From contig NZ_JAHCST010000029.1 of the NCBI RefSeq assembly GCF_018476525.1, forward strand, positions 1-64,000: a DNA stretch of 64,000 nucleotides, written 5' to 3'. The position numbers and the translations under genes were made by a program. Below, in pieces: positions 7,530 through 53,415 of this stretch (within the stretch, counting starts at the first letter, position 1; the number at the start of each line of letters is the position of its first letter). The DNA is from Acrocarpospora catenulata. Its GTDB lineage: Bacteria; Actinomycetota; Actinomycetes; Streptosporangiales; Streptosporangiaceae. Under the pieces are notes generated by a model that saw only the letters and a program-made list of their open reading frames with translations, did not search any database and was not told the origin of the DNA.

Positions 7530-9449
7530 CTAGCCTCCTGGCGGGGTGGGTGGCGCCTGAGGTGACGGCGAAGGCGGGATGGGAGGAGAAAGCACGTCGG
7601 CTCGCGGAGAGGGCACGGGCGGAGTCGGCAGCAGCGAGGGTGTGGCTGTCGAGGTGCGAACGGATGGTGGCAGTACTTCCTCCACCAGTTCGTAGTGGCC
7701 GCTGATGAGATAACCGATGTTCACCAGGGATGAGGAACCGGTGTTCCAGTAACTGGAGTGCGCGGCCCCGGTGGCGAGAAGCCCGCCGTCGGTTCCTTGG
7801 ACGGTGAATTTACGCGCTCCGAATCGGGGATCGCCGGGGTCGGTGCCAAAGGGACCGCTGGGGTTCTGGGCGGCGAACAGAATTCCTCCGGGTCCCGTTT
7901 CGCTGCGGTACGGGACGTGGGCGAGGTCGGCCACCAGATCCTGAGGGGATTCGCCGACCCAGACCTGGTCGACACCGAGTTGGTCGGCCCTTCCGGCCCC
8001 CACGCCGGGACTGCCGACTAGGACAAGTTGGTCGGCGAATGTTCCGATTCTCCGCTTGGCAGTGATTCCCACGAGCAGGGAGCCGTAGCTGTGGCCGAGC
8101 ACGGTTGACAGGGGGTCCTTCCCGACCTGGTGGGTGGCCCGGAGTCCGTCGGTGAACGATGCGAGCGCCCCCGAGCCCGTTACGGCGATGTTGACAGAAG
8201 CCACGGAGCGATCGGCCTTGAGCAGGCCGAAGTCCCACTGCGGGGCGTCGTATTCGAACCAGGCGATCGAGGCGACCTGCTTGTCTCCCGCCGATCTGTT
8301 GGCCTGCCGCCACATTATGGTGGCGCGTGCGGCATCGGAGGCGAAGCCATCGAGCTTCGTGCCTGTGCCGGGTACGGAGGTGACGATGTTGTCGGCGGTG
8401 TCGGGATTGCCATAGGAGATGGCGGTCCGACCCAGGTCGCTCTGGCCGTTCAGGCCAGCGAGGCCGATGCTGAGCAGTAGCGCGGGGGGCACACCATTGA
8501 CGCCGCCGAGGGCGAGGCTTTTGTTGACGGCGTTCATCTGGCGGAGTTGCAGTTCGAGCTCCTCGATTTCCGCTGCCGCTTCCTTCGACGATTTCTGTAA
8601 TTCTGCCAGGCGCTTGGTGACGGCGGCGTGTTGTTCGGCCAGATAGCGGCGGTTGGCGAGGTCCCGGGTGGCGGCGGGGATGCCGTTGAGGCTGCCGATT
8701 TCGTGGGGGCGGCCAGTGAGCAGTGCCGCTTGTCTGTCCGGAGGGAGTTGGCGCCACCAGGCGTTGATTCGGGCGGCGAGTTCGGGGTCCTGACCGGTGC
8801 GTTGGAGGTGCTGGAGTTTGGTGAAGGCCGTGGTGTCGTAATTGGCGGCGGCGGTCAGGAGTTTGGCGGTGCCGTGGGGGTCGGGGGCGAAGGCGCCGAA
8901 CAGGCCGAAGGCGGTCAGGGCCGGGGAGGCCAGGCCCTGGGGCTCCTGCTGCAGGGTGGACAGACGTCTTCTCAGGTCGGGGACCTGTGTGGTGGCCCAG
9001 GTCGCGACTTCGGCGACCTGGTGCACCGGGGTGGGGGAGACACAGGCGGTCATCGACTCCACGGAAAGGCGTTGCGCGGCCTCGGCCAGGGACTTTCCGG
9101 CGCGGTCGAGATCCTGGACGAGGCGGGTCATGGCTTCGACGTCCATGCCGGCGAAACCATTCGCGGCATTGGCCGGGATGGTGATGGTGGCGGCGAAACG
9201 GGGGACGGGAAGGGGCTGGCCGCCCAGGGTGCGGAGACGGTCGGCGATCTGGTCGGCCGCTGTCTGGAAGGCCGACTGCATGCGGGTTCGCCGCTCGGTC
9301 AGGGCTTGGGTGAAGGGGCCTGCTCCGCCGCCGACCCAGGAGTGGGCGGCCATGTAGCGCATGCAGGAGTCCAGTACGGTGACATGTTCGTCCGCCAGCC
9401 AGATCACCCGTGAGAGGGCAGCCTCCAGCCCGGCCGTCTCGTCCGCCAC
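7530..9449 (-). CDS. DUF1023 alpha/beta hydrolase with WXG-like N-terminus
   Basis: This 639-aa protein has three parts. Residues 1-100 are helical with SWVGGGAGPF, resembling a WXG100-type hairpin. Residues 100-330 are largely helical, including a coiled-coil-like stretch with KSSKEAAAEIEELELQLRQM. From about 350 comes an alpha/beta hydrolase domain with the nucleophile elbow GHSYGS and a later AAHSSYW likely holding the catalytic His. The C-terminal 45 residues are Pro/Ser-rich and disordered. No signal peptide is visible, so WXG-linked (type VII) export is possible but unproven. The start is GTG at 9449. The lipoprotein gene follows with no gap. The natural substrate is unknown. Confidence 0.82.
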   Translation of the reverse strand: MADETAGLEAALSRVIWLADEHVTVLDSCMRYMAAHSWVGGGAGPFTQALTERRTRMQSAFQTAADQIADRLRTLGGQPLPVPRFAATITIPANAANGFAGMDVEAMTRLVQDLDRAGKSLAEAAQRLSVESMTACVSPTPVHQVAEVATWATTQVPDLRRRLSTLQQEPQGLASPALTAFGLFGAFAPDPHGTAKLLTAAANYDTTAFTKLQHLQRTGQDPELAARINAWWRQLPPDRQAALLTGRPHEIGSLNGIPAATRDLANRRYLAEQHAAVTKRLAELQKSSKEAAAEIEELELQLRQMNAVNKSLALGGVNGVPPALLLSIGLAGLNGQSDLGRTAISYGNPDTADNIVTSVPGTGTKLDGFASDAARATIMWRQANRSAGDKQVASIAWFEYDAPQWDFGLLKADRSVASVNIAVTGSGALASFTDGLRATHQVGKDPLSTVLGHSYGSLLVGITAKRRIGTFADQLVLVGSPGVGAGRADQLGVDQVWVGESPQDLVADLAHVPYRSETGPGGILFAAQNPSGPFGTDPGDPRFGARKFTVQGTDGGLLATGAAHSSYWNTGSSSLVNIGYLISGHYELVEEVLPPSVRTSTATPSLLPTPPVPSPRADVLSPPIPPSPSPQAPPTPPGG

Positions 9450-9515: not shown

Positions 9516-10166
9516 TCACAGCATTTCTTGCAGGCGGCGGATTTCGGCGCTCTGTTCGGCTATGACGTCGTTTGCCCATCTGAGGACCTGCTCGTGGGAG
9601 CCGTTGATCATTTGGTTTTCCGCCATGGTGATGGCGCCCTGGTGGTGGGCGATCATCAGGGTGAGGAAGAGGTGGTCGAAGTCGGAGCCGGTGGCGGTGC
9701 GGAGGGAGGTCATCTGGGACTGGGTGGCCATGCCGGGCATGGTGGCGTGGTCGGCGTGGTGGTCTGGTTCGGGGAGGCCCTCTGTTTGGAGCCAGGTGGT
9801 CATGACCTTGATTTCGGGGCCCTGGGCGTCGTAGATGCGGTCGGCGAGGCTCTTGAGGCGGGTGGACTTGGCGCGGTCGGGGGCGAGGGAGGCCATCTCC
9901 AGGGCCTGGCGGTGGTGGACGATCATGTCCTGGACGTAGCGGACGTCGGTGGCGTTGACGGTGGGCGAGGGAATGGCGGGGATGGGGTCGCCCGGGCCGA
10001 GGGTCTTGGCGGGCTCGCCGGGCTTGCCCGGAACGATCACCGGCGCGGTGGAGGTCACCCGGGGAGGCTCCTCGGTCGAGGTGCAGCCGGTCGCGAAGAG
10101 CCCGGCACCTGCCGCCAGTGTGACTAACACCACACGCCACCGGCGGGCTCCTGGGAGCGCTACCAC
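9516..10166 (-). CDS. DUF305 lipoprotein
   Basis: From the GTG at 10166 this is a 216-aa protein. It has a clean lipoprotein signal: basic GARRWR, hydrophobic VVLVTLAAGAGLFA, lipobox ATGC. The mature part has two DUF305 ferritin-like repeats, each with a His/Met-rich helix: DMIVHHRQALEMAS and LMIAHHQGAITMAE. Family members are linked to copper or redox handling in the envelope, but function is not established. The frame stays open to a GTG at 10454, through an in-frame 11-residue repeat (units like REAALPDSGR). I prefer the internal start because only it puts the signal peptide at the N-terminus. The longer start cannot be excluded. Confidence 0.8.
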   Translation of the reverse strand: MVALPGARRWRVVLVTLAAGAGLFATGCTSTEEPPRVTSTAPVIVPGKPGEPAKTLGPGDPIPAIPSPTVNATDVRYVQDMIVHHRQALEMASLAPDRAKSTRLKSLADRIYDAQGPEIKVMTTWLQTEGLPEPDHHADHATMPGMATQSQMTSLRTATGSDFDHLFLTLMIAHHQGAITMAENQMINGSHEQVLRWANDVIAEQSAEIRRLQEML

Positions 10167-46359: not shown

Positions 46360-47877
46360 TCACACACTCTGCGGGAGCTGGAACAGCCGTCCGGGATCGT
46401 AGGCGGCCTTCACCCGGGCCAGCCGGGCGGCGTTGGCGCCGTAGTACTGCTGCCGCCAGCCGGTCAGCTCCGGGTCGACGTAGTTGACGTAGGCGTGGTC
46501 GCCGAAGAACGGGCGCATCGCCGCGTGCGCGGCCCGGGTCCACGCCTTGGCCTGGGCGAAGTGCGCGTAGTACTGCACGCTGTAGAGGGCCTTGCGGTGC
46601 GGGAAGGCGGTGGCGTCCGGGGCCACCCTGGCGATCGCGCCGCCGAAGGCGTCCAGCAGCACGGTGTGCCGCCCGGACTTGGCGACCTGGGATAACAGGG
46701 CGGTGATCCCGGCGTCCGTGAGCGGCGCGTACGCGAAGTGCGACTTGGCGCTGAAGGTGTCCCGCACCAGCTTGCCGTCGCCGGTCTCGCCCGGTAACGA
46801 CCCGGGGCGGTGGCACTGGGAGACCGAGTAGGACGAGCACCCCGCCATGATCATCATGGCCTGCTGGTACGGCGTCTGCCGCACGTACCGGCTGGCCGGG
46901 TCGCGGCCGACCCGGTCGGCCAGCCGTTGTAACTGGCGCTCGCAGGCCGACTTGGAGCCCAGGTACAGCCCGCCGACGGTCACGTCCAGGTCCGGGTCGT
47001 GGCTCAGGTGCAGGTTGGACCAGAGCGCGGCCGGGGCCGTGGGCGCCCACGCCTGCCAGGCGTGGAGCACGGCGGCCGCCCGGGACCACGGCCAGTGCAG
47101 GAAGAAGACGGTGACCTCGCGGATGGGGTGGGTGCGGAAGGTGAACGAGGTCGCTATGCCGAAATTTCCGCCACCGCCGCCCCTGGACGCCCAGAACAGG
47201 TCGGGGTTGCTGGTGGGCGAGCAGACCAGTTGCCTGCCGTCCGCCGTGACCATGCGCAGCTCGGTGAGGGCGTCGCAGGTCAGGCCGTACTGGCGGGAGA
47301 CCACGCCGATGCCGCCGCCCAGGGTGAGCCCGGCCACGCCGACGCTCGGGCAGGAACCGGCCGGGATGCTCACGCCGGACTTGGCGAGCTTGGCGTACAC
47401 GTCCACGAGCTTGGCGCCGGCGCCGACGGTGGCCAGGCCCGTCGCGAAGGCGCTGCCGGTGGGCGGGGGTGCCGCGTACCGGACGGTGGCCATCGGGGAG
47501 ACGTCCACCACCAGGCCGGTGCCGGTGGACCAGCCCGCGTAGCTGTGCCCGCCGGAGCGGGCGGTGATGGGCAGGGCGTACCGGCGGGCGAAGGAGACGC
47601 ACTCGGCCACGTCGGCCGGGCTCGCGCAGTACGCGATCCCGGCCGGCCGGATCTTGTCGAAGGCCGGGTTGAACAGGCGGCGCGCCCGGTCGTACACGGC
47701 GTCCGACGGGCGGACGAGCCGGCCGTCCAGGCCGCGGCCGAGCGCGCGCCAGTCCGGTGCCGTGGCTGTTGCCGAAGTCAGAGATGGTCCGGCGATGGCG
47801 GCCAGGCCGACCGGGGCCGCCAACGCCAGAAAACCCCGCCGCCCTAGCAGGGTGGGAGGTGAAGGTGGGTATCGCAT
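46360..47877 (-). CDS. Tat-exported bicovalent FAD oxidoreductase (BBE family)
   Basis: This 505-aa flavoprotein has a twin-arginine signal RRGFLALAAP at residues 13-22, implying folded export. The p-cresol methylhydroxylase-type FAD domain carries His 111 (RSGGHSYAG) and Cys 176 (IPAGSCPSVGVAGLTLGGG). Together these form the two covalent FAD links of berberine-bridge-like enzymes. The C-terminus YDPGRLFQLPQSV is the BBE tail. Such enzymes oxidise sugars, alkaloids or phenolics using oxygen. The substrate is unknown. It converges on the STAND ATPase gene with no gap. Confidence 0.88.
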   Translation of the reverse strand: MRYPPSPPTLLGRRGFLALAAPVGLAAIAGPSLTSATATAPDWRALGRGLDGRLVRPSDAVYDRARRLFNPAFDKIRPAGIAYCASPADVAECVSFARRYALPITARSGGHSYAGWSTGTGLVVDVSPMATVRYAAPPPTGSAFATGLATVGAGAKLVDVYAKLAKSGVSIPAGSCPSVGVAGLTLGGGIGVVSRQYGLTCDALTELRMVTADGRQLVCSPTSNPDLFWASRGGGGGNFGIATSFTFRTHPIREVTVFFLHWPWSRAAAVLHAWQAWAPTAPAALWSNLHLSHDPDLDVTVGGLYLGSKSACERQLQRLADRVGRDPASRYVRQTPYQQAMMIMAGCSSYSVSQCHRPGSLPGETGDGKLVRDTFSAKSHFAYAPLTDAGITALLSQVAKSGRHTVLLDAFGGAIARVAPDATAFPHRKALYSVQYYAHFAQAKAWTRAAHAAMRPFFGDHAYVNYVDPELTGWRQQYYGANAARLARVKAAYDPGRLFQLPQSV

Positions 47878-47949
47878 GGTCTCTCCCCGAGAGTGGAGCT
47901 ATCCCATGAGACGCGCGATATGGGGTTTTGGTTGGAGCGTCGGGTCAGA

Positions 47950-49407
47950 TCATCGTTGTCCGATGCGCAGGGCCAGGGCCGGGCACATCTCCACCGCGCG
48001 CTGGGCCTCGCTCTTGGCCCAGGCCGGGACCGGGCTGTCGATGAACACGGGATAGCCATGGTGGTCCAGTTTCACGAGTTCGGGAACCAGGTGCGCGCAG
48101 AGGCCGTGACCCTGGCAGCGGGTCCAGTCCACCACCAGCCGGACGTCGGTGGAGTCCACGATGGGCAGCGGCAGCACTTCCTTGACCGGCCGCCCGCAGG
48201 TGCCGTTCAGCCGGTGCTCCTCCACGTCGTCCTTGAACGCCTCCAGCGCGGAGAGCACGAACCTGGAGGTTCCGTCCGGGTGGAAGCAGGCGCCCCGGCC
48301 GCGTACCGCGGTGGCCGCCTGCTGCACCAGGTCCAGCGCGCCCTGGGTGCCCACGGTCAGCTCGGCCAGCGCCCTGGCCAGCGACGGCAGGCCGATCCGG
48401 CAGGGGCCGCACTGGCCGGCCGACTGCGCGGCCAGGTAGGCGGCCACCCGGACCGTCTCGCCGAGCGGGCAGGTGTCCGGGCCCAGCGGGACGATGATGC
48501 CCGCGCCCAGCTCCCCGCCCGACTGGGACATGCCCCGGCGGGACACGATCGCGCCGTAGGCGTCCGCCGCGCTCAGCCACTTGCCGTGGTAGCCGCCGAC
48601 CAGCAGGCCGTCGCCCACGTTGGCCTCGCACAGGTCCAGCACCGCGGCCAGCGGCAGGCCGGGGGTGACCTCCACCACCGAGGGGGCCACCACCGAGCCG
48701 CTCACGCTGAGCAGGATGGTGCCCGGCTCCTGCGCGGTGCCCACCGACGCGTACTCCTGCGGCCCGAGCTCGGCCAGCAGCGCCAGCTGCGCGAACGTCT
48801 CGGTGTTGGAGAGCAGCGTGGGCAGCCCGTTCACCCCGCTGTCGCTGGACCTGACCTTCCGCCCGGACGGCATGCCCAGCTCGCCGTTGACAGCCTTGAC
48901 CAGGGCGCCGCCCTCGCCGGAGATGAACCGCTCCTGGATGCCGACCACCCGGACGTACCCGGTCAGGCCGCGCTCGGCGACGGCGGCCAGCATGGAGCCC
49001 TCGGCCAGCTCCCCGGCGGGGGTGGCCACCACCACCTCCTTGGAGTCCAGCGCGCTGGCCGCCAGCAGCGCGCCCTCCAGCACCAGGTGCGGCGAGCGGG
49101 TCAGCAGCATCTTGTCCTTCATGCTGGCCGGCTCGCCCTCCGCGGCGTTGACCAGCACCACCGTGTCGGAGGTTCGGGTGTGCGCGGCGACCGCGCGCAG
49201 CTTGCGGGCGAAGGGGAAGGCGGCCCCGCCGCGGCCGCGCAGGTCCACCTCCTCCGCGAGCGAGATGAGCGAGTCCACCGTCTCGCCGTCCAGCTGCCGG
49301 TGCACGCTGTAGTGGGCGTCCAGGTCGAGACGACGGTGGTCGTCCAGCCCGGCGGTGAGCCGGGCCGGACCCATTCTGCGGATCTTGGAGACGCGGTAGG
49401 GGATCAT
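47950..49407 (-). CDS. NuoF-like flavoprotein fused to a ferredoxin domain
   Basis: This 485-aa protein resembles the FMN/NADH-binding subunit of respiratory complex I: DLRGRGGAAFPFARKL, VNAAEGEPASMKD, then GQCGPCRIG for the N3-type [4Fe-4S] cluster with a further Cys in GRGACFHPDG. The last 75 residues form a small ferredoxin (TRCQGHGLCAHLVPE, then AVEMCPALAL) of the single-cluster actinobacterial type. No other complex I genes are near. Its ATG overlaps the stop of the membrane cytochrome-like gene (ATGA), so electrons probably pass between the two. The donor and acceptor are unknown. Confidence 0.85.
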   Translation of the reverse strand: MIPYRVSKIRRMGPARLTAGLDDHRRLDLDAHYSVHRQLDGETVDSLISLAEEVDLRGRGGAAFPFARKLRAVAAHTRTSDTVVLVNAAEGEPASMKDKMLLTRSPHLVLEGALLAASALDSKEVVVATPAGELAEGSMLAAVAERGLTGYVRVVGIQERFISGEGGALVKAVNGELGMPSGRKVRSSDSGVNGLPTLLSNTETFAQLALLAELGPQEYASVGTAQEPGTILLSVSGSVVAPSVVEVTPGLPLAAVLDLCEANVGDGLLVGGYHGKWLSAADAYGAIVSRRGMSQSGGELGAGIIVPLGPDTCPLGETVRVAAYLAAQSAGQCGPCRIGLPSLARALAELTVGTQGALDLVQQAATAVRGRGACFHPDGTSRFVLSALEAFKDDVEEHRLNGTCGRPVKEVLPLPIVDSTDVRLVVDWTRCQGHGLCAHLVPELVKLDHHGYPVFIDSPVPAWAKSEAQRAVEMCPALALRIGQR

Positions 49408-50189
49408 ACGACTCTCCGGAGTTTGGAGGAGGTGCGTTCGCGGCCCACGATGCTGATCGGTTCAGGCACCGACTGCGGCGCCACTTCGGGCATCGGGAGG
49501 TCTTCCAGGTCCTCGGCCATGCTCGCCGCAGGGCGGAGCGAGGCCACGACCCGGAGGAGGAGTGCGGTGCCGACCGCCACGAGGCAGCCGACGTAACACC
49601 AGGTGACCCATTCGGCCGGGGTACGGCCGGCGGCCAGGCCGTGCAGTATCGACACGGGCCAGGCCAGGTAGGCCAGGTCGTGCAGGCCGCGCCAGAGCCA
49701 GGGGCGCTCGGCCTGCGCGAACCGGCCGCGCATCACGCCGGTGGCGACGACCACGATCATCAGGTCGGAGGCGATGGCCCCCGCCCCGATGGCCAGGTTC
49801 GTCGTGGGGAGCACCGATCCCCAGGGGGGGACCAGTCCGGCGGCGAGCTTCATCCCGATGTGGGTGATCAGGAACCCCACCCCGACGAGCGCGGCCGCGC
49901 GGTGCACGAGCTGGGCGCGCACCCGCCAGGGGATGGACATGATCACTCGTTCGGAGGCGAGCAGGCCCAGGCCGACCGTGGCGGTGAGGGCGACCAGGGA
50001 GAACACACCGGCGTAGAAGGTCAGGAACTCCTGCGCCGCGAGCATCAGCCCGGCGCTCAGCCCGCTTCTGGCGGCGAGCAGGGAACCGAGCATGACGATT
50101 ATCACCAGGGTGCCCAGGGAGATCCGGACGGCCCTGTTCTGCAGGTTGAGCGGGGTGCCGGCACGGCGGTGAGCCCGTCTTTTGGACAC
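49404..50189 (-). CDS. Ferric-reductase-like transmembrane protein
   Basis: This 261-aa protein has about six transmembrane helices. Paired histidines in helices (AQLVHRAAALVGVGFLITHIG, and RGLHDLAYLAWPVSILHGL) fit bis-haem ligation as in ferric reductase/YedZ-like domains. The soluble C-terminal tail is short, lacking FAD or NAD domains, which the overlapping NuoF-like partner may supply. GTG at 50189 follows GGAGG by 6 bases. Role in transmembrane electron transfer is inference from the fold and the 4-bp overlap with the partner gene. Confidence 0.82.
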   Translation of the reverse strand: MSKRRAHRRAGTPLNLQNRAVRISLGTLVIIVMLGSLLAARSGLSAGLMLAAQEFLTFYAGVFSLVALTATVGLGLLASERVIMSIPWRVRAQLVHRAAALVGVGFLITHIGMKLAAGLVPPWGSVLPTTNLAIGAGAIASDLMIVVVATGVMRGRFAQAERPWLWRGLHDLAYLAWPVSILHGLAAGRTPAEWVTWCYVGCLVAVGTALLLRVVASLRPAASMAEDLEDLPMPEVAPQSVPEPISIVGRERTSSKLRRVV

Positions 50190-50257
50190 TCGTTCCTCCG
50201 GGAGGGGGACTCTTGTTTGGGGGGTGCTGGGGCTCGGGGCGTGCCGAACCGTTGACG

Positions 50258-51550
50258 TCAGCAGCGGCGTCCGCGGTTGATGCACTGGACCACGAAGTTC
50301 ATGAGCTGGTTGGACATCACGTTGTGGAAGTCCGCGTGGTCGGTGATCGGGCTGTGCCGTTGTTCGGGGAAGGCGTCCACCGCGAACGAGGGACCCTGCG
50401 GCACCTGGTACACCAGGGTCATGCGCAGCTGCGGGACCGCCTGGGTGCCGGACGGGCAGGCGCCGTTCCCGTCGGGGAACACCACGTGCGTGCGGTGGTT
50501 GGCGCTGTCGGTGTTCTGACCGTCCCAGCAGCTGGGGAAGTCCAGGACGCGCAGGAGCAGGCTGCCGCGTGGGCAGAGCGGGTACTGGGTGGTGAACCGG
50601 TTGGTGAAGCCGGTGCAGCTCCACATGGCCCGGGCGTTGGCGCCGCCGTTGGTGGCCGCCTTGGCGTCACCGGTGATCAGGCGGAGGAACCTGGGCATGG
50701 CCACCACCCGGCTGGCCCGGTTGCCGCGGAACTCCAGCACGACCTGGCGCGGGCGCAGGATGGTGCCGATGTTGCCGTCGGCGGCCCCGCCGAGCTCGGA
50801 ACCGTCCTCACCGGGGGCCGGCGGCCGGATCTGCTGGGGCTCCTGCGACGGCGTCGGGTTGACGGGGTTCTGCTGCTGCCCCTGCTGCTGGTTCTGCTGG
50901 TTGTTCTGGTTGTTCTGCTGGTCCTGAAGGTTGGGGTCCTGCTGCTGACCCTGCTGGCCTTGCTGGCCTTGCTGGTTCTGTTGCTGGCCCTGCTGGTTCT
51001 GCTGGTTCTGTTGCTGGCCCTGCTGTTGGCCCTGTTGCTGGTTCTGGTTGTTGTTCTGCTGCTGGTTCTGCTGCTGCTGGTTCTGTTGCTGGTTGCGCCG
51101 GTTCTGCTGTTGCTGCTGGTTGAGCTCCTGGAGGAGGTCAGGCCTGCTCCGGATCACCGGCCAGAAGTACGCGGACTTGTCGCCGAACCGGCAGGTGGTC
51201 CCGCCTGCCGCCAGGCTCTGGTCGGTGGAGAACCCGTTGGTGGTCAGGTTGCCCACGTAGTCGTGCACGTGGTGGGCTCCGTTGGTCACGCCGGGGGCCA
51301 CGATGTGGTTGTCGGAGTTGCGATGCCCGTTCTGGTTGCGGCCGCACTGCGAGGTGAACGAACCGCGACCGGCGCGGACGCCGGTGTTCCCCGGCGGAAC
51401 CCGCCGGATGTCGACGAAGTCGCTGAGCACGGGCCCGAACTGCTCGTTGGCGAAGGCGGGCCCGGCGAGGATGGGGATGGGGGACCCGGGAAGCCCGGCG
51501 AGCGACCCCGCCAGTAGGACGCCAGCGACCGCTATAGAGCGTTTTCGCAT
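50258..51550 (-). CDS. Secreted DUF1996 protein interrupted by a Gln/Asn-rich tract
   Basis: This 430-aa exoprotein has a Sec signal (MRKRSIAVAGVLLAGSLAGL, cleavage near AFA-NE). The DUF1996 domain contains SDNHIVAPGVTNGAHHVHDY, a His cluster likely to bind metal, and later FPSCWDGQNTDSANHRTHVVF. Residues about 141-228 are almost entirely Gln, Asn and Gly, a prion-like low-complexity insert splitting the domain. Cys pairs suggest disulphides. Function is unknown. It lies between the DUF4142 and ferric-reductase-like genes, all on one strand. Confidence 0.85.
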   Translation of the reverse strand: MRKRSIAVAGVLLAGSLAGLPGSPIPILAGPAFANEQFGPVLSDFVDIRRVPPGNTGVRAGRGSFTSQCGRNQNGHRNSDNHIVAPGVTNGAHHVHDYVGNLTTNGFSTDQSLAAGGTTCRFGDKSAYFWPVIRSRPDLLQELNQQQQQNRRNQQQNQQQQNQQQNNNQNQQQGQQQGQQQNQQNQQGQQQNQQGQQGQQGQQQDPNLQDQQNNQNNQQNQQQGQQQNPVNPTPSQEPQQIRPPAPGEDGSELGGAADGNIGTILRPRQVVLEFRGNRASRVVAMPRFLRLITGDAKAATNGGANARAMWSCTGFTNRFTTQYPLCPRGSLLLRVLDFPSCWDGQNTDSANHRTHVVFPDGNGACPSGTQAVPQLRMTLVYQVPQGPSFAVDAFPEQRHSPITDHADFHNVMSNQLMNFVVQCINRGRRC

Positions 51551-51585
51551 GGATTCTCCTCTTGGAACTAGTACGAACTGACTAG

Positions 51586-52176
51586 CTAAGGCAGTGGGGT
51601 GGGGAGCGCGGCGTAGTCCACCAGGCCCGTCTCCTCAAGCAGCGTCATGTGCTTGAGGACGACCGCATTGGCCTTCGTGGCGAAGTCGCGGATCTTGTCG
51701 TTCTTGGTGCCCGCGCGAACTGCGGCGATGGCCGAGAAGACCTTGCCGTGCGCGGCGCGCAGCCGGTCGGCGAAGATCTGGTCGAACTGGGCGCCGGTCG
51801 TGCTGGACAGCTCGCCGAGCCAGCGCTGCTGGTCGGCGTTGGGTTCGTCGGGCAGCGAGACCCCGAGCTCCAGCGCCTCGGCGCGGACGTCCTCGTCGAG
51901 CTGGGCGTGATCTCTGACCAGGTGCTGGCCGGTCTCCTTGACCTTGGCGTTCGTCGAGCGCTCCTGCGCCCAGCGGCCGGCGGGGATCTCCCAGAGGCCT
52001 GCCCACCGCACCTTGATGAGCAGATCTCGGTCGGCCGGACCCAGCGGGCCCCACCGCGTCTGGGTCCAGCCCTCCTGTTGCGCCGCCTGACTCTGCGGCA
52101 CCACCACGATGACGGCCACCGCCGCCGCGAACAGGAAGACTCCGAACACCACGAGCTCCCCAAACCGGAACCGCAT
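51586..52176 (-). CDS. DUF4142 protein, membrane-anchored
   Basis: This 196-aa protein has an N-terminal hydrophobic helix (FGELVVFGVFLFAAAVAVIVVV) acting as anchor or uncleaved signal. An extracytoplasmic ferritin-like helical DUF4142 domain follows (LLIKVRWAGLWEIPAGRWAQ, then VRDHAQLDEDVRAEA, then QFDQIFADRLRAAHGKVFSA). Family members are found in cell envelopes and may sense or handle redox stress. It is divergent from the ECF sigma gene by 137 bp, so the sigma factor may control this strand too. Confidence 0.85.
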   Translation of the reverse strand: MRFRFGELVVFGVFLFAAAVAVIVVVPQSQAAQQEGWTQTRWGPLGPADRDLLIKVRWAGLWEIPAGRWAQERSTNAKVKETGQHLVRDHAQLDEDVRAEALELGVSLPDEPNADQQRWLGELSSTTGAQFDQIFADRLRAAHGKVFSAIAAVRAGTKNDKIRDFATKANAVVLKHMTLLEETGLVDYAALPTPLP

Positions 52177-52282
52177 GGCGCCTCCTCTCTTTCGGTGGGA
52201 GGTACGCGGGTGTCCGGGAGGCGGTTCAGCTCATTTTTCGGGCCCTTCAGCGCATAGTCAGAAATGACTGGAGTTACGGTAG

Positions 52283-52299
52283 TTGTGTACATCACACAA
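52283..52299. promoter_or_regulatory. Dyad before the ECF sigma gene
   Basis: TTGTGT and ACACAA flank a 5-bp centre, a perfect 17-bp inverted repeat ending 14 bp before the sigma start. It could be an operator in the divergent sigma/DUF4142 region. Confidence 0.45.
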
Positions 52300-52313
52300 A
52301 GCCGGGTGCCACT

Positions 52314-52883
52314 ATGTGCCTCGTGCGCCGACAACTCGACACCCGGTTCGAGCGGCTGGACCCCGACGACGAACCTGATCGGGATGATCGTCTGATCAGA
52401 GAGCTGTATGAGGAGTTCGGTGGTCCGTTGCTCCGTCAGGTCAGGCAGACGACCGGCAACGACCTGCAGTGGGCTGAGGACGTCGTCCAGGAGACGCTCC
52501 TGCGCGCTTGGCGTAACGCGCCGAAGCTGACGTGGGAGCGAGGGCTGCTCTGGGCCTGGCTCCTGACCGTCTCTCGCCGCATCGTGATCGACGGCCGTCG
52601 CCGGCGAGGCGTCCGTCCCCGGGAGGTGGAACCCCCCGAGGCGGACAGCATCGCCGTCCCCGACACGGCCGACCGCACGCTGGCGTCCATTGTGGTCGCC
52701 GAGGCGTTACGCGGCCTGTCGCCAGATCACAGGGAAGTTATAGAACAGACATACTTACGGGACCGCACAGTTAACGAGGCGGCGGAGATACTGGGGATAC
52801 CACCGGGTACGGTGAAGTCCAGGCTCTACTATGCGTTGCGTGCACTGCGGGCGGTTCTGAAAGAGAGGGGAGTGGCCAACTGA
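52314..52883 (+). CDS. ECF-type RNA polymerase sigma factor
   Basis: This 189-aa sigma-70 family protein has region 2 (LRQVRQTTGNDLQWAEDVVQ, then ETLLRAWRN) and region 4 (SPDHREVIEQTYLRDRTVNE, then ILGIPPGTVKSRLYYALRAL) and no other domain. It redirects RNA polymerase, most likely to envelope or redox genes nearby. The ATG at 52314, or GTG at 52323, is the start. The next gene, a stub anti-sigma factor, overlaps its stop by one base. Confidence 0.92.
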   Translation: MCLVRRQLDTRFERLDPDDEPDRDDRLIRELYEEFGGPLLRQVRQTTGNDLQWAEDVVQETLLRAWRNAPKLTWERGLLWAWLLTVSRRIVIDGRRRRGVRPREVEPPEADSIAVPDTADRTLASIVVAEALRGLSPDHREVIEQTYLRDRTVNEAAEILGIPPGTVKSRLYYALRALRAVLKERGVAN

Positions 52884-53077
52884 TGTCGGTCTTCGGGGAG
52901 TCCGCACACCACGACGTGGCGGCCTACGCCCTCGGGGTGCTGGACCTCGAAGACGTTCAGGGCTTCGAACTCCACCTCGCCGCGTGTGCCCAGTGCCGGG
53001 TCGAGCTTGAGGAGCTCCGTGAGCTCCCAGGGCTGCTCGACGAGGTCAAGTCCGAGTCACACCGAACCCGCCAGTGA
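52883..53077 (+). CDS. Short zinc-finger anti-sigma factor
   Basis: This 64-aa protein is only a zinc-binding anti-sigma domain: ESAHHDVAAYALGVLDLEDV followed by HLAACAQCRVELEEL, giving the H-x3-C-x2-C pattern. Most relatives carry a transmembrane helix and an extracytoplasmic sensor; here translation stops soon after the domain. It may act as a soluble redox-responsive inhibitor or be a truncated remnant. Its ATG overlaps the sigma stop (TGATG), so the two are made together. Confidence 0.72.
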   Translation: MSVFGESAHHDVAAYALGVLDLEDVQGFELHLAACAQCRVELEELRELPGLLDEVKSESHRTRQ

Positions 53078-53172: not shown

Positions 53173-53415
53173 ATGTCCGAGGCAAGAGCCGTACCGACTC
53201 GCCGGACACTGGTGAGGACGGCGCGCGGCTGAATCGATGGCGACTACCGAAGCCTGCCCCAGCTCTTCGACCAGGAGCCCCAGTCGGGGGCCAGTGACGA
53301 ACTCTCCTTCATCACCTGGCACCAGGTCCACGAGCTCTGGTTCACACCTCTCCTGCGCGAGCTGGAGCGGGCACGGAAACGCCATCGTCCCGGACGCGGT
53401 CTCCCCAGTCGGTGA
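53173..53415 (+). pseudogene. Broken tryptophan 2,3-dioxygenase-like gene remnant
   Basis: An ATG at 53173 with a GGGAG ribosome site opens a frame (MSEARAVPT...) that is stopped by TGA at codon 20 (53230-53232). The same frame resumes as DYRSLPQLFDQEP, then SDELSFITWHQVHELWF, then TPLLRELERARKR, clearly the N-terminal helix region of tryptophan 2,3-dioxygenases. A stop follows at 53413. Only about 60 of the expected 280 or more residues remain, without the rest of the haem pocket. The region between residues 12 and 24 reads more naturally in another frame (TGEDGARLNRW), suggesting paired frameshifts. Confidence 0.65.

Follow-up and report, generated by a model that had tools for sequence, protein, structure and literature searches.

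MsrQ-like membrane proteins occur in flavinylation gene clusters, 31 of which also encode a NuoF-like protein, and the paper describing them names a flavin-based extracellular electron transfer system (PMC8238504). Here we compare with these systems a gene cluster of the actinomycete Acrocarpospora catenulata in which a NuoF-ferredoxin fusion is paired with a membrane protein with two predicted haem sites, next to the genes of an extracytoplasmic function (ECF) sigma factor and an anti-sigma factor. The stretch of DNA analysed – 'the window' – is 64,000 nucleotides long (G000:C104:1-64000) and is part of a 10.29-Mb genome. An earlier note on this DNA knew of no description of the combination; a close relative had been published, namely the 31 clusters above, and beyond PMC8238504 the open-access literature searched held, in its accessible text, no other account. 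All genes that the earlier note named at 46360-53077 are present, as judged by Pfam and NCBIfam matches, and the anti-sigma gene ends at 53077:

46360..47877, minus strand: flavoprotein of the FAD_binding_4/BBE family (EncM / berberine-bridge type) with a twin-arginine translocation (Tat)-type N-terminus (PF01565 E 2e-28, PF08031 E 3e-16)
47950..49407, minus strand: NuoF-like NADH/flavin mononucleotide (FMN)/iron-sulphur module with C-terminal ferredoxin (Complex1_51K / NADH_4Fe-4S / Fer4_15; PF01512, PF10589 with E 6e-17, PF13459)
49404..50189, minus strand: six-helix membrane protein of bis-haem type, putatively of the ferric reductase domain (FRD) superfamily (conserved His, AlphaFold (AF2) model, Foldseek)
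50258..51550, minus strand: DUF1996 protein (PF09362 E 9e-22)
51586..52176, minus strand: DUF4142 protein, first gene after the ECF-type promoter (PF13628 E 1e-24)
52203..52228, minus strand: predicted ECF-type promoter TGAACC-N14-CGCGTA, 27 bp upstream of DUF4142 (motif scan and alignment)
52314..52883, plus strand: ECF sigma factor (nearest profile PRK09645)
52883..53077, plus strand: zf-HC2 anti-sigma factor, 64 aa (PF13490 E 1e-5)

The minus-strand genes are likely transcribed in the order DUF4142, DUF1996, membrane gene, NuoF-ferredoxin, flavoprotein, with gaps of 35, 68, -4 and 72 bp: the membrane gene, which has a GTG start behind a GGAGGA site, overlaps the fusion gene by 4 bp. The sigma/anti-sigma pair lies on the plus strand, divergent from these genes. 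We think it rather probable, judging from domains, motifs and promoter placement, that the locus encodes a sigma-controlled transmembrane NADH:extracytoplasmic-acceptor oxidoreductase, the likely job of which would be to deal with metal stress or oxidative stress at the surface of the cell.

The relatives' loci are the best 80 of 563 confirmed matches, and the sample is therefore skewed to close relatives; their genes were called by a small custom script with approximate start positions, and N-termini inspected by eye served to label products 'exported' or 'lipoprotein'. Three locus sets of differing make-up were used: a BLAST-cluster set (93 loci, with two counted twice: L044 = L066 and L049 = L131), a profile-search set (93) and a promoter-scan set (88). 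Since some loci end at contig edges, a DUF gene not found there may lie past the end. Against this background, the membrane gene was found in 92/93 loci from several actinomycete families, always on the strand of NuoF and in 91/93 no more than 800 bp from it, the exception to the pairing being L081, which starts within NuoF at a contig edge. In L047 the two genes are separated by an RRXRR/HNH gene (7702-9051), which we take to be IscB-like. The core pair is thus real and conserved, and the pairing exceeds chance. The window's NuoF homologue is 94% identical to its counterparts in Acrocarpospora pleiomorpha and A. macrocephala.

The fusion protein, in which no signal sequence was seen, retains the NADH/FMN domain in its NuoF part as well as RGACxHP and a CxxHxxC ferredoxin motif, both present in 93/93 NuoF homologues. 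It carries SAGQCGPC at residue 329, with Ala in place of the first Cys of the complex I N3 motif. This residue is Ala or Ser in all 93 homologues ([SNT][AS]xQCGPC in 93/93), unlike in the four aligned PDB chains, which have SCGxCxxC; the N3 ligand pattern of complex I NuoF is SCGxCxPC. A Cys about 20 residues upstream of the N3 motif (C313 in the window) is invariant in 16 aligned fusions, and taken together with the substitution this means that the iron-sulphur centre may be differently built. We rejected the idea that the gene is a complex I remnant on the grounds of the N3 motif and because no partner subunits were seen.

In the membrane protein, His96, His110, His170 and His183 are invariant in 47/47 aligned sequences. 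The AF2 model (predicted local distance difference test score, pLDDT, 80.9; predicted TM-score, pTM, 0.69) has six long helices and places His96 and His110 on helix 3 (86-116) and His170 and His183 on helix 5 (163-186); NADPH oxidases (NOX) and STEAP proteins likewise have their haem histidines in pairs on these two helices. The top seven Foldseek matches of the model were STEAP2, STEAP4, the Streptococcus pneumoniae NADPH oxidase (two entries) and STEAP1 (three chains), with E 0.03-0.2 and TM-scores of 0.32-0.41: all seven share the FRD superfamily, though none of these model-based matches is significant alone. The relative in L046 matches Ferric_reduct (PF01794) with E 1.4e-4 and 22.4 bits, under the cut-off of 28, and the ferric-reductase-like proteins encoded beside ApbE in Rhodococcus and on an Arthrobacter plasmid score 87 and 70 bits against the profile of the window's family. 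PDB sequence searches with the membrane protein, DUF4142 and DUF1996 gave no significant relative (best E 0.048). The predicted architecture supports a ferric-reductase type protein with two haem sites. The membrane proteins of L089-L127 (Micromonosporaceae) are longer, most of them 417-714 aa.

The nearest profile of the window's sigma factor is PRK09645 of NCBIfam, which we take to be SigL, with 194.4 bits (cut-off 202; next profile 91.9). Its putative anti-sigma partner carries HLAACAQC, an HxxxCxxC motif, at residues 31-38; no hydrophobic segment was seen in its 64 residues, and relatives' anti-sigmas of 330 aa (L045) and 222 aa (L046) each have, by eye, a hydrophobic stretch. Mycobacterium tuberculosis needs SigL to grow when iron or zinc is low (PMC10449499), and oxidation of the SigL anti-sigma factor RslA leads to zinc release and a disulphide between the cysteines of HxxxCxxC (PMC2877774). 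By analogy, the window's anti-sigma probably senses oxidation.

Upstream of the operon, the hexamers of TGAACC-N14-CGCGTA are conserved, with a variable spacer, in 15/18 aligned loci. This promoter resembles the SigL consensus TGAACC-N16-18-CGT, which literature searches did not confirm. The pre-operon site is the window's sole match at no more than one mismatch (shuffles give 0.17). Across five Acrocarpospora genomes we found 16 exact sites, all 16 on the right strand and 9-79 bp upstream of genes with exported-looking products, and 15 of them intergenic. The genes behind these sites encode DUF4142 (5/5 genomes), TIGR03118 (5/5), a DUF305 lipoprotein (4/5) and a further lipoprotein (2/5), which has homologues close to the core pairs of G005 and Streptomyces NBC_00060 (35% and 39% identity; E 1e-19 and 3e-18). 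The additional lipoprotein that accompanies the core pair in some loci is PF03640 / SCO0930-like, under the cut-off of the SCO0930-like model. As a control we used a mis-spaced pattern (N16-17 before CGCGTA), itself without a match at the window's own site: it gave 14 sites in the same five genomes, of which one lies before a gene, and the control site L145 has no same-strand gene downstream. A one-mismatch scan of the window's own genome returned 33 sites: two exact, 28 with one mismatch and with loci analysed, and three without a locus. Four of the 28 lie no more than 150 bp before a gene, including a lipoprotein gene (L165) and a DUF305 gene (L180) that are absent among this genome's exact-site targets.

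Beyond the genus, 12 further genomes of the family, picked by hand (seven with the core pair, five without), hold 24 exact sites versus two of the reversed pattern. Eleven of the 24 are no more than 200 bp from a homologue of the set (DUF4142 4, TIGR03118 3, lipoprotein 2, DUF305 1, ECF 1) and two more are 464-469 bp off, inside called open reading frames (ORFs). No site occurs in four of the five genomes lacking the core pair; in the fifth, G008, three were found, one of them preceding the ECF gene. The core pair is present in G005, yet no site of the exact form. In the 88 loci from several families, a relaxed form (N14-15 [CT]GCGTA) gave 36 sites, 32 of them within 200 bp upstream of a group gene (DUF4142 24, lipoproteins 4, membrane gene 3, all in Streptomyces, ECF 1); of the other four, one is probably before a short-called DUF4142 gene (L065) and three are elsewhere. 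Five control patterns found no site in the same loci, and variants of the motif stand upstream of the cluster in Actinomadura, Nocardiopsis and Streptomyces. Promoter placement thus supports the proposal, already made in the earlier note, that the neighbouring ECF factor controls the operon, and extends this predicted control to other exported-looking proteins. The motif that the note had proposed to look for upstream of each gene is found before DUF4142.

Two further observations concern this putative regulon. The G008 genome has no detected NuoF pair, and its ECF factor (L196) is 56% identical to the window's and preceded by the same motif; such a regulon may therefore occur where the electron exporter is absent. 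Aminotransferase genes (PF00155) stand behind the motif in L194 and L197, and a similar-looking gene stands behind a one-mismatch site of the window's own genome (L179); an aminotransferase is a possible cytosolic regulon member.

Profile searches placed DUF4142 in 33/93 and DUF1996 in 31/93 loci, all no more than 6 kb from NuoF, and BLAST clusters placed the ECF factor in 24/93 and the anti-sigma in 21/93. Gene order varies. Within the window's family, most loci with DUF4142 have the ECF/anti-sigma genes divergent from DUF4142-DUF1996-membrane-NuoF; Sphaerisporangium has membrane-NuoF followed by inverted anti-sigma, ECF and DUF4142, Actinomadura has M23-like-membrane-NuoF-DUF4142-DUF1996, Dactylosporangium vinaceum has membrane-NuoF-ECF-lipoprotein-DUF4142, and in Nocardiopsis lipoprotein-DUF4142-DUF1996 are divergent. 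On a quick tree of NuoF, the DUF4142 label changes six times, at least five of these changes being forced by well supported branches, so the association with DUF4142 recurred or persisted in separate branches.

The DUF4142 protein begins with a hydrophobic signal or anchor, and His90, Asp94, Asp132, His176 and Glu181 are invariant in an alignment of 32. We take the DUF4142 and DUF305 folds to be ferritin-like helix bundles and the proteins to be putative metal binders; the DUF305 protein matches both CopM and DUF4142, each below cut-off. The DUF1996 protein (430 residues) has a signal-like N-terminus and conserved HxHD and TDHxDF motifs; a fold search with its model (mean pLDDT 65.6) yielded nothing usable. 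It had been called His-rich, which is not borne out: it contains 10 His versus 71 Gln and 41 Asn, the latter two concentrated in an insert at about residues 145-235, a region absent in 6/11 aligned rows. DUF1996 and DUF4142 genes are found at other places in these genomes too, at a distance from NuoF and often paired. They lie no more than 0.5 kb apart, away from any NuoF fusion, at G001:C39, G002:C96, G003:C6, G004:C14, G008:C44, G013:C36 and G019:C7, which suggests that the two proteins may form a working pair by themselves. A second DUF4142 protein is encoded in the window itself, about 40 kb from the cluster (9516-10133, minus strand; PF13628 E 2.6e-12 at 9555-9950), and the window motif scan found no promoter motif at this gene. 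In L043 (8853-9574) the DUF1996 gene is split across two overlapping frames, by a frameshift or a sequencing error.

At residue 13 the flavoprotein carries RRGFLAL, a motif of Tat type; His111 and Cys176 fall within flavin-attachment motifs. The bicovalent attachment that had been proposed is compatible with these two predicted sites. The motif Cys aligns with a Cys of PDB 9p1p (match with E 5e-71) and not with EncM. The gene immediately follows NuoF in only 9/93 loci (Acrocarpospora 4, Herbidospora 3, L040 of the same family, and Nonomuraea guangzhouensis) and therefore lies outside the conserved unit; a tenth family member sits elsewhere in L073, and in N. gerenzanensis a fragment was called. 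The flavoprotein is a peripheral addition in a few genera, and we rejected an antibiotic-type oxidase cluster centred on it, since it is not conserved with the remaining genes. The earlier note's single gene group thus holds for the core pair (same strand in 92/93 loci) and not for the flavoprotein, and its proposal that the genes should travel together rather than be separately distributed among relatives fails for the flavoprotein, fails in part for DUF1996 and DUF4142, and leaves the NuoF-membrane pair unaffected. The proposed route from NADH through NuoF-ferredoxin and a bis-haem protein to the outside is supported by the invariant His, the predicted six-helix model and the weak STEAP/NOX matches, with the Tat flavoprotein falling outside its core.

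Beyond the cluster, at 53173-53394 on the plus strand, lies a shortened tryptophan 2,3-dioxygenase gene remnant with an internal stop, 59% identical across 75 residues to the L056 homologue (PF03301 E 1e-55); several relatives carry a gene of this family at the same place.

How might the proposed oxidoreductase work? Judging from its domains, the cytosolic NuoF-ferredoxin would take two NADH electrons onto FMN and pass them on singly via iron-sulphur centres. The membrane protein, from its invariant His and fold, would move them across the membrane via two stacked b haems. Delivery outside, the weakest step, would be to metal ions or metal-binding exported proteins, most likely the DUF4142 and DUF1996 products of the same operon. 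Finally, promoter placement supports a scheme in which the ECF sigma, held by a zinc-type anti-sigma probably sensing oxidation, would activate the operon from TGAACC-N14-CGCGTA together with the TIGR03118 protein, the DUF305 (CopM-like) lipoprotein and the further lipoprotein. That the acceptor is metal ions or metalloproteins is a guess, drawn from the DUF305-CopM resemblance (below cut-off), the conserved His/Asp/Glu of DUF4142, the need for SigL in low iron or zinc, and fungal DUF1996 mutants, which show sensitivity both to oxidation and to several metal ions (PMC4738358). A more specific version of the scheme we hold tentatively, as somewhat short of an even chance: this would be a sigma-controlled, ApbE-independent actinomycete electron export, in which the NuoF-ferredoxin/bis-haem pair would pass its electrons to metal centres in exported proteins, both the ferritin-like ones (DUF4142, DUF305) and DUF1996.

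Several observations weigh against the scheme. The loss of the first N3 Cys in all 93 homologues leaves the iron-sulphur path not certain; the fold matches of the membrane protein are individually non-significant (best E 0.03, TM-score about 0.4), and it matches no Pfam family at E 0.1, PF01794 included. As to regulation, L043 and L044/L066 (one genome) have no pre-operon site, the window's ECF gene has no exact site in front of it, and with nine reversed-pattern sites versus 16 exact ones the Acrocarpospora argument rests on placement and not on number; for 11 of the 24 exact sites in the 12 family genomes there is no explanation, two of these sites standing before genes of class I/II aminotransferases. 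The fungal DUF1996 deletions left Cu2+ sensitivity unchanged (PMC4738358), which speaks against copper. Finally, the Micromonosporaceae pair has as partners a thioredoxin-fold protein and often a CcdA-type protein instead and is not preceded by a promoter site; the metal reading may therefore not extend to the whole family.

These Micromonosporaceae loci, in which a ResA/TlpA-like protein comes right after NuoF (27/93 loci) and DsbD_TM (CcdA-type) next (18), are also the starting point for a different explanation: a thiol/disulphide relay, in which the pair, by a route parallel to that of DsbD/CcdA, would feed exported thioredoxin-fold proteins, with the DUF products as substrates or as stress proteins. 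We judge this unlikely: where DUF4142 lies beside NuoF, no locus has a member of this thioredoxin-fold family within six genes, and CcdA-type proteins are generally known to draw electrons from cytosolic thioredoxin already. Equally unlikely in our estimation is an assimilatory ferric or cupric reductase, which would supply electrons for metal uptake and not for stress. The low-iron requirement for SigL in M. tuberculosis (PMC10449499) fits this explanation, as does the VIT1-type iron transporter found in 153 published MsrQ-like clusters (PMC8238504); however, there is no metal transporter among the window operon products or scanned predicted targets, the only transporter seen being a TauE/SafE protein, with no substrate assigned, behind the L160 lipoprotein gene.

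Less likely still is a surface NADH oxidase, the haems of which would reduce O2 to external superoxide as in bacterial NOX, with the exported proteins dealing with the products. While the S. pneumoniae NADPH oxidase ranks third and fourth in Foldseek, the window's membrane protein has no flavin/NADPH reductase domain at its C-terminus, since the NADH module is a distinct protein of NuoF type, and the scan of products, which did not extend to other neighbours, gave neither a superoxide dismutase nor a peroxidase.

If the scheme of sigma-controlled electron export to surface metal centres is true, DUF4142, DUF305 and DUF1996 proteins would gain an extracellular redox role, and DUF1996, DUF4142 and TIGR03118, which are without an established bacterial function, would be tied to a transmembrane electron supply and one sigma factor. 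One surface redox regulon would be common to Streptosporangiaceae, Actinomadura, Nocardiopsis and some Streptomyces, and the promoter motif would make it testable by reporter and deletion work in soil actinomycetes. 'MsrQ-like' electron export would extend beyond flavinylated proteins.

Among known systems, complex I NuoF and HydB-type modules have in common with the window's protein the NADH/FMN domain and the 4Fe-4S region; the window family differs by Ala/Ser for the first N3 Cys and by the C-terminal ferredoxin, and neither NuoE nor NuoG was seen among the window neighbours scanned. STEAP proteins and the bacterial and eukaryotic NADPH oxidases are alike in the six helices and the helix 3 and 5 histidine pairs of the predicted membrane protein, but in the window the flavin/NADPH domain is not fused, and the match statistics are weak. 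Gram-positive flavin-based extracellular electron transfer, that is Ndh2/FmnB/PplA, likewise runs from NADH to an outside acceptor, whereas the window has no nearby FMN_bind protein. As to regulation, SigL-RslA of M. tuberculosis is alike in its nearest sigma profile, PRK09645, and in a zinc-type anti-sigma with HxxxCxxC; RslA, however, has a membrane part, which the 64-aa anti-sigma of the window lacks, and the known SigL targets differ. Close relatives are the MsrQ-like/NuoF flavinylation systems (PMC8238504; Rhodococcus L034, Arthrobacter plasmid L031), which also have an FRD-type membrane protein beside a NuoF-like module and a ferredoxin, L034 and L031 sharing the SAxQCGPC and RGACxxP signatures with the window family. 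ApbE is theirs, whereas the window differs by its fused ferredoxin, DUF4142/DUF1996 and ECF regulon: BLAST with two ApbE queries (1e-4, six-frame ORFs) found no ApbE in the 93 loci, and there is no FMN_bind near the window cluster, the single one detected in the genome lying at G000:C1:430162 (FMN_bind was not sought in other loci). These two results set the window system apart from flavinylation systems, though it is homologous to such loci. On our best reading, which is one of analogy, the window pair would work like the MsrQ-like plus NuoF systems, with DUF4142 and DUF1996 replacing ApbE and the flavinylated proteins.

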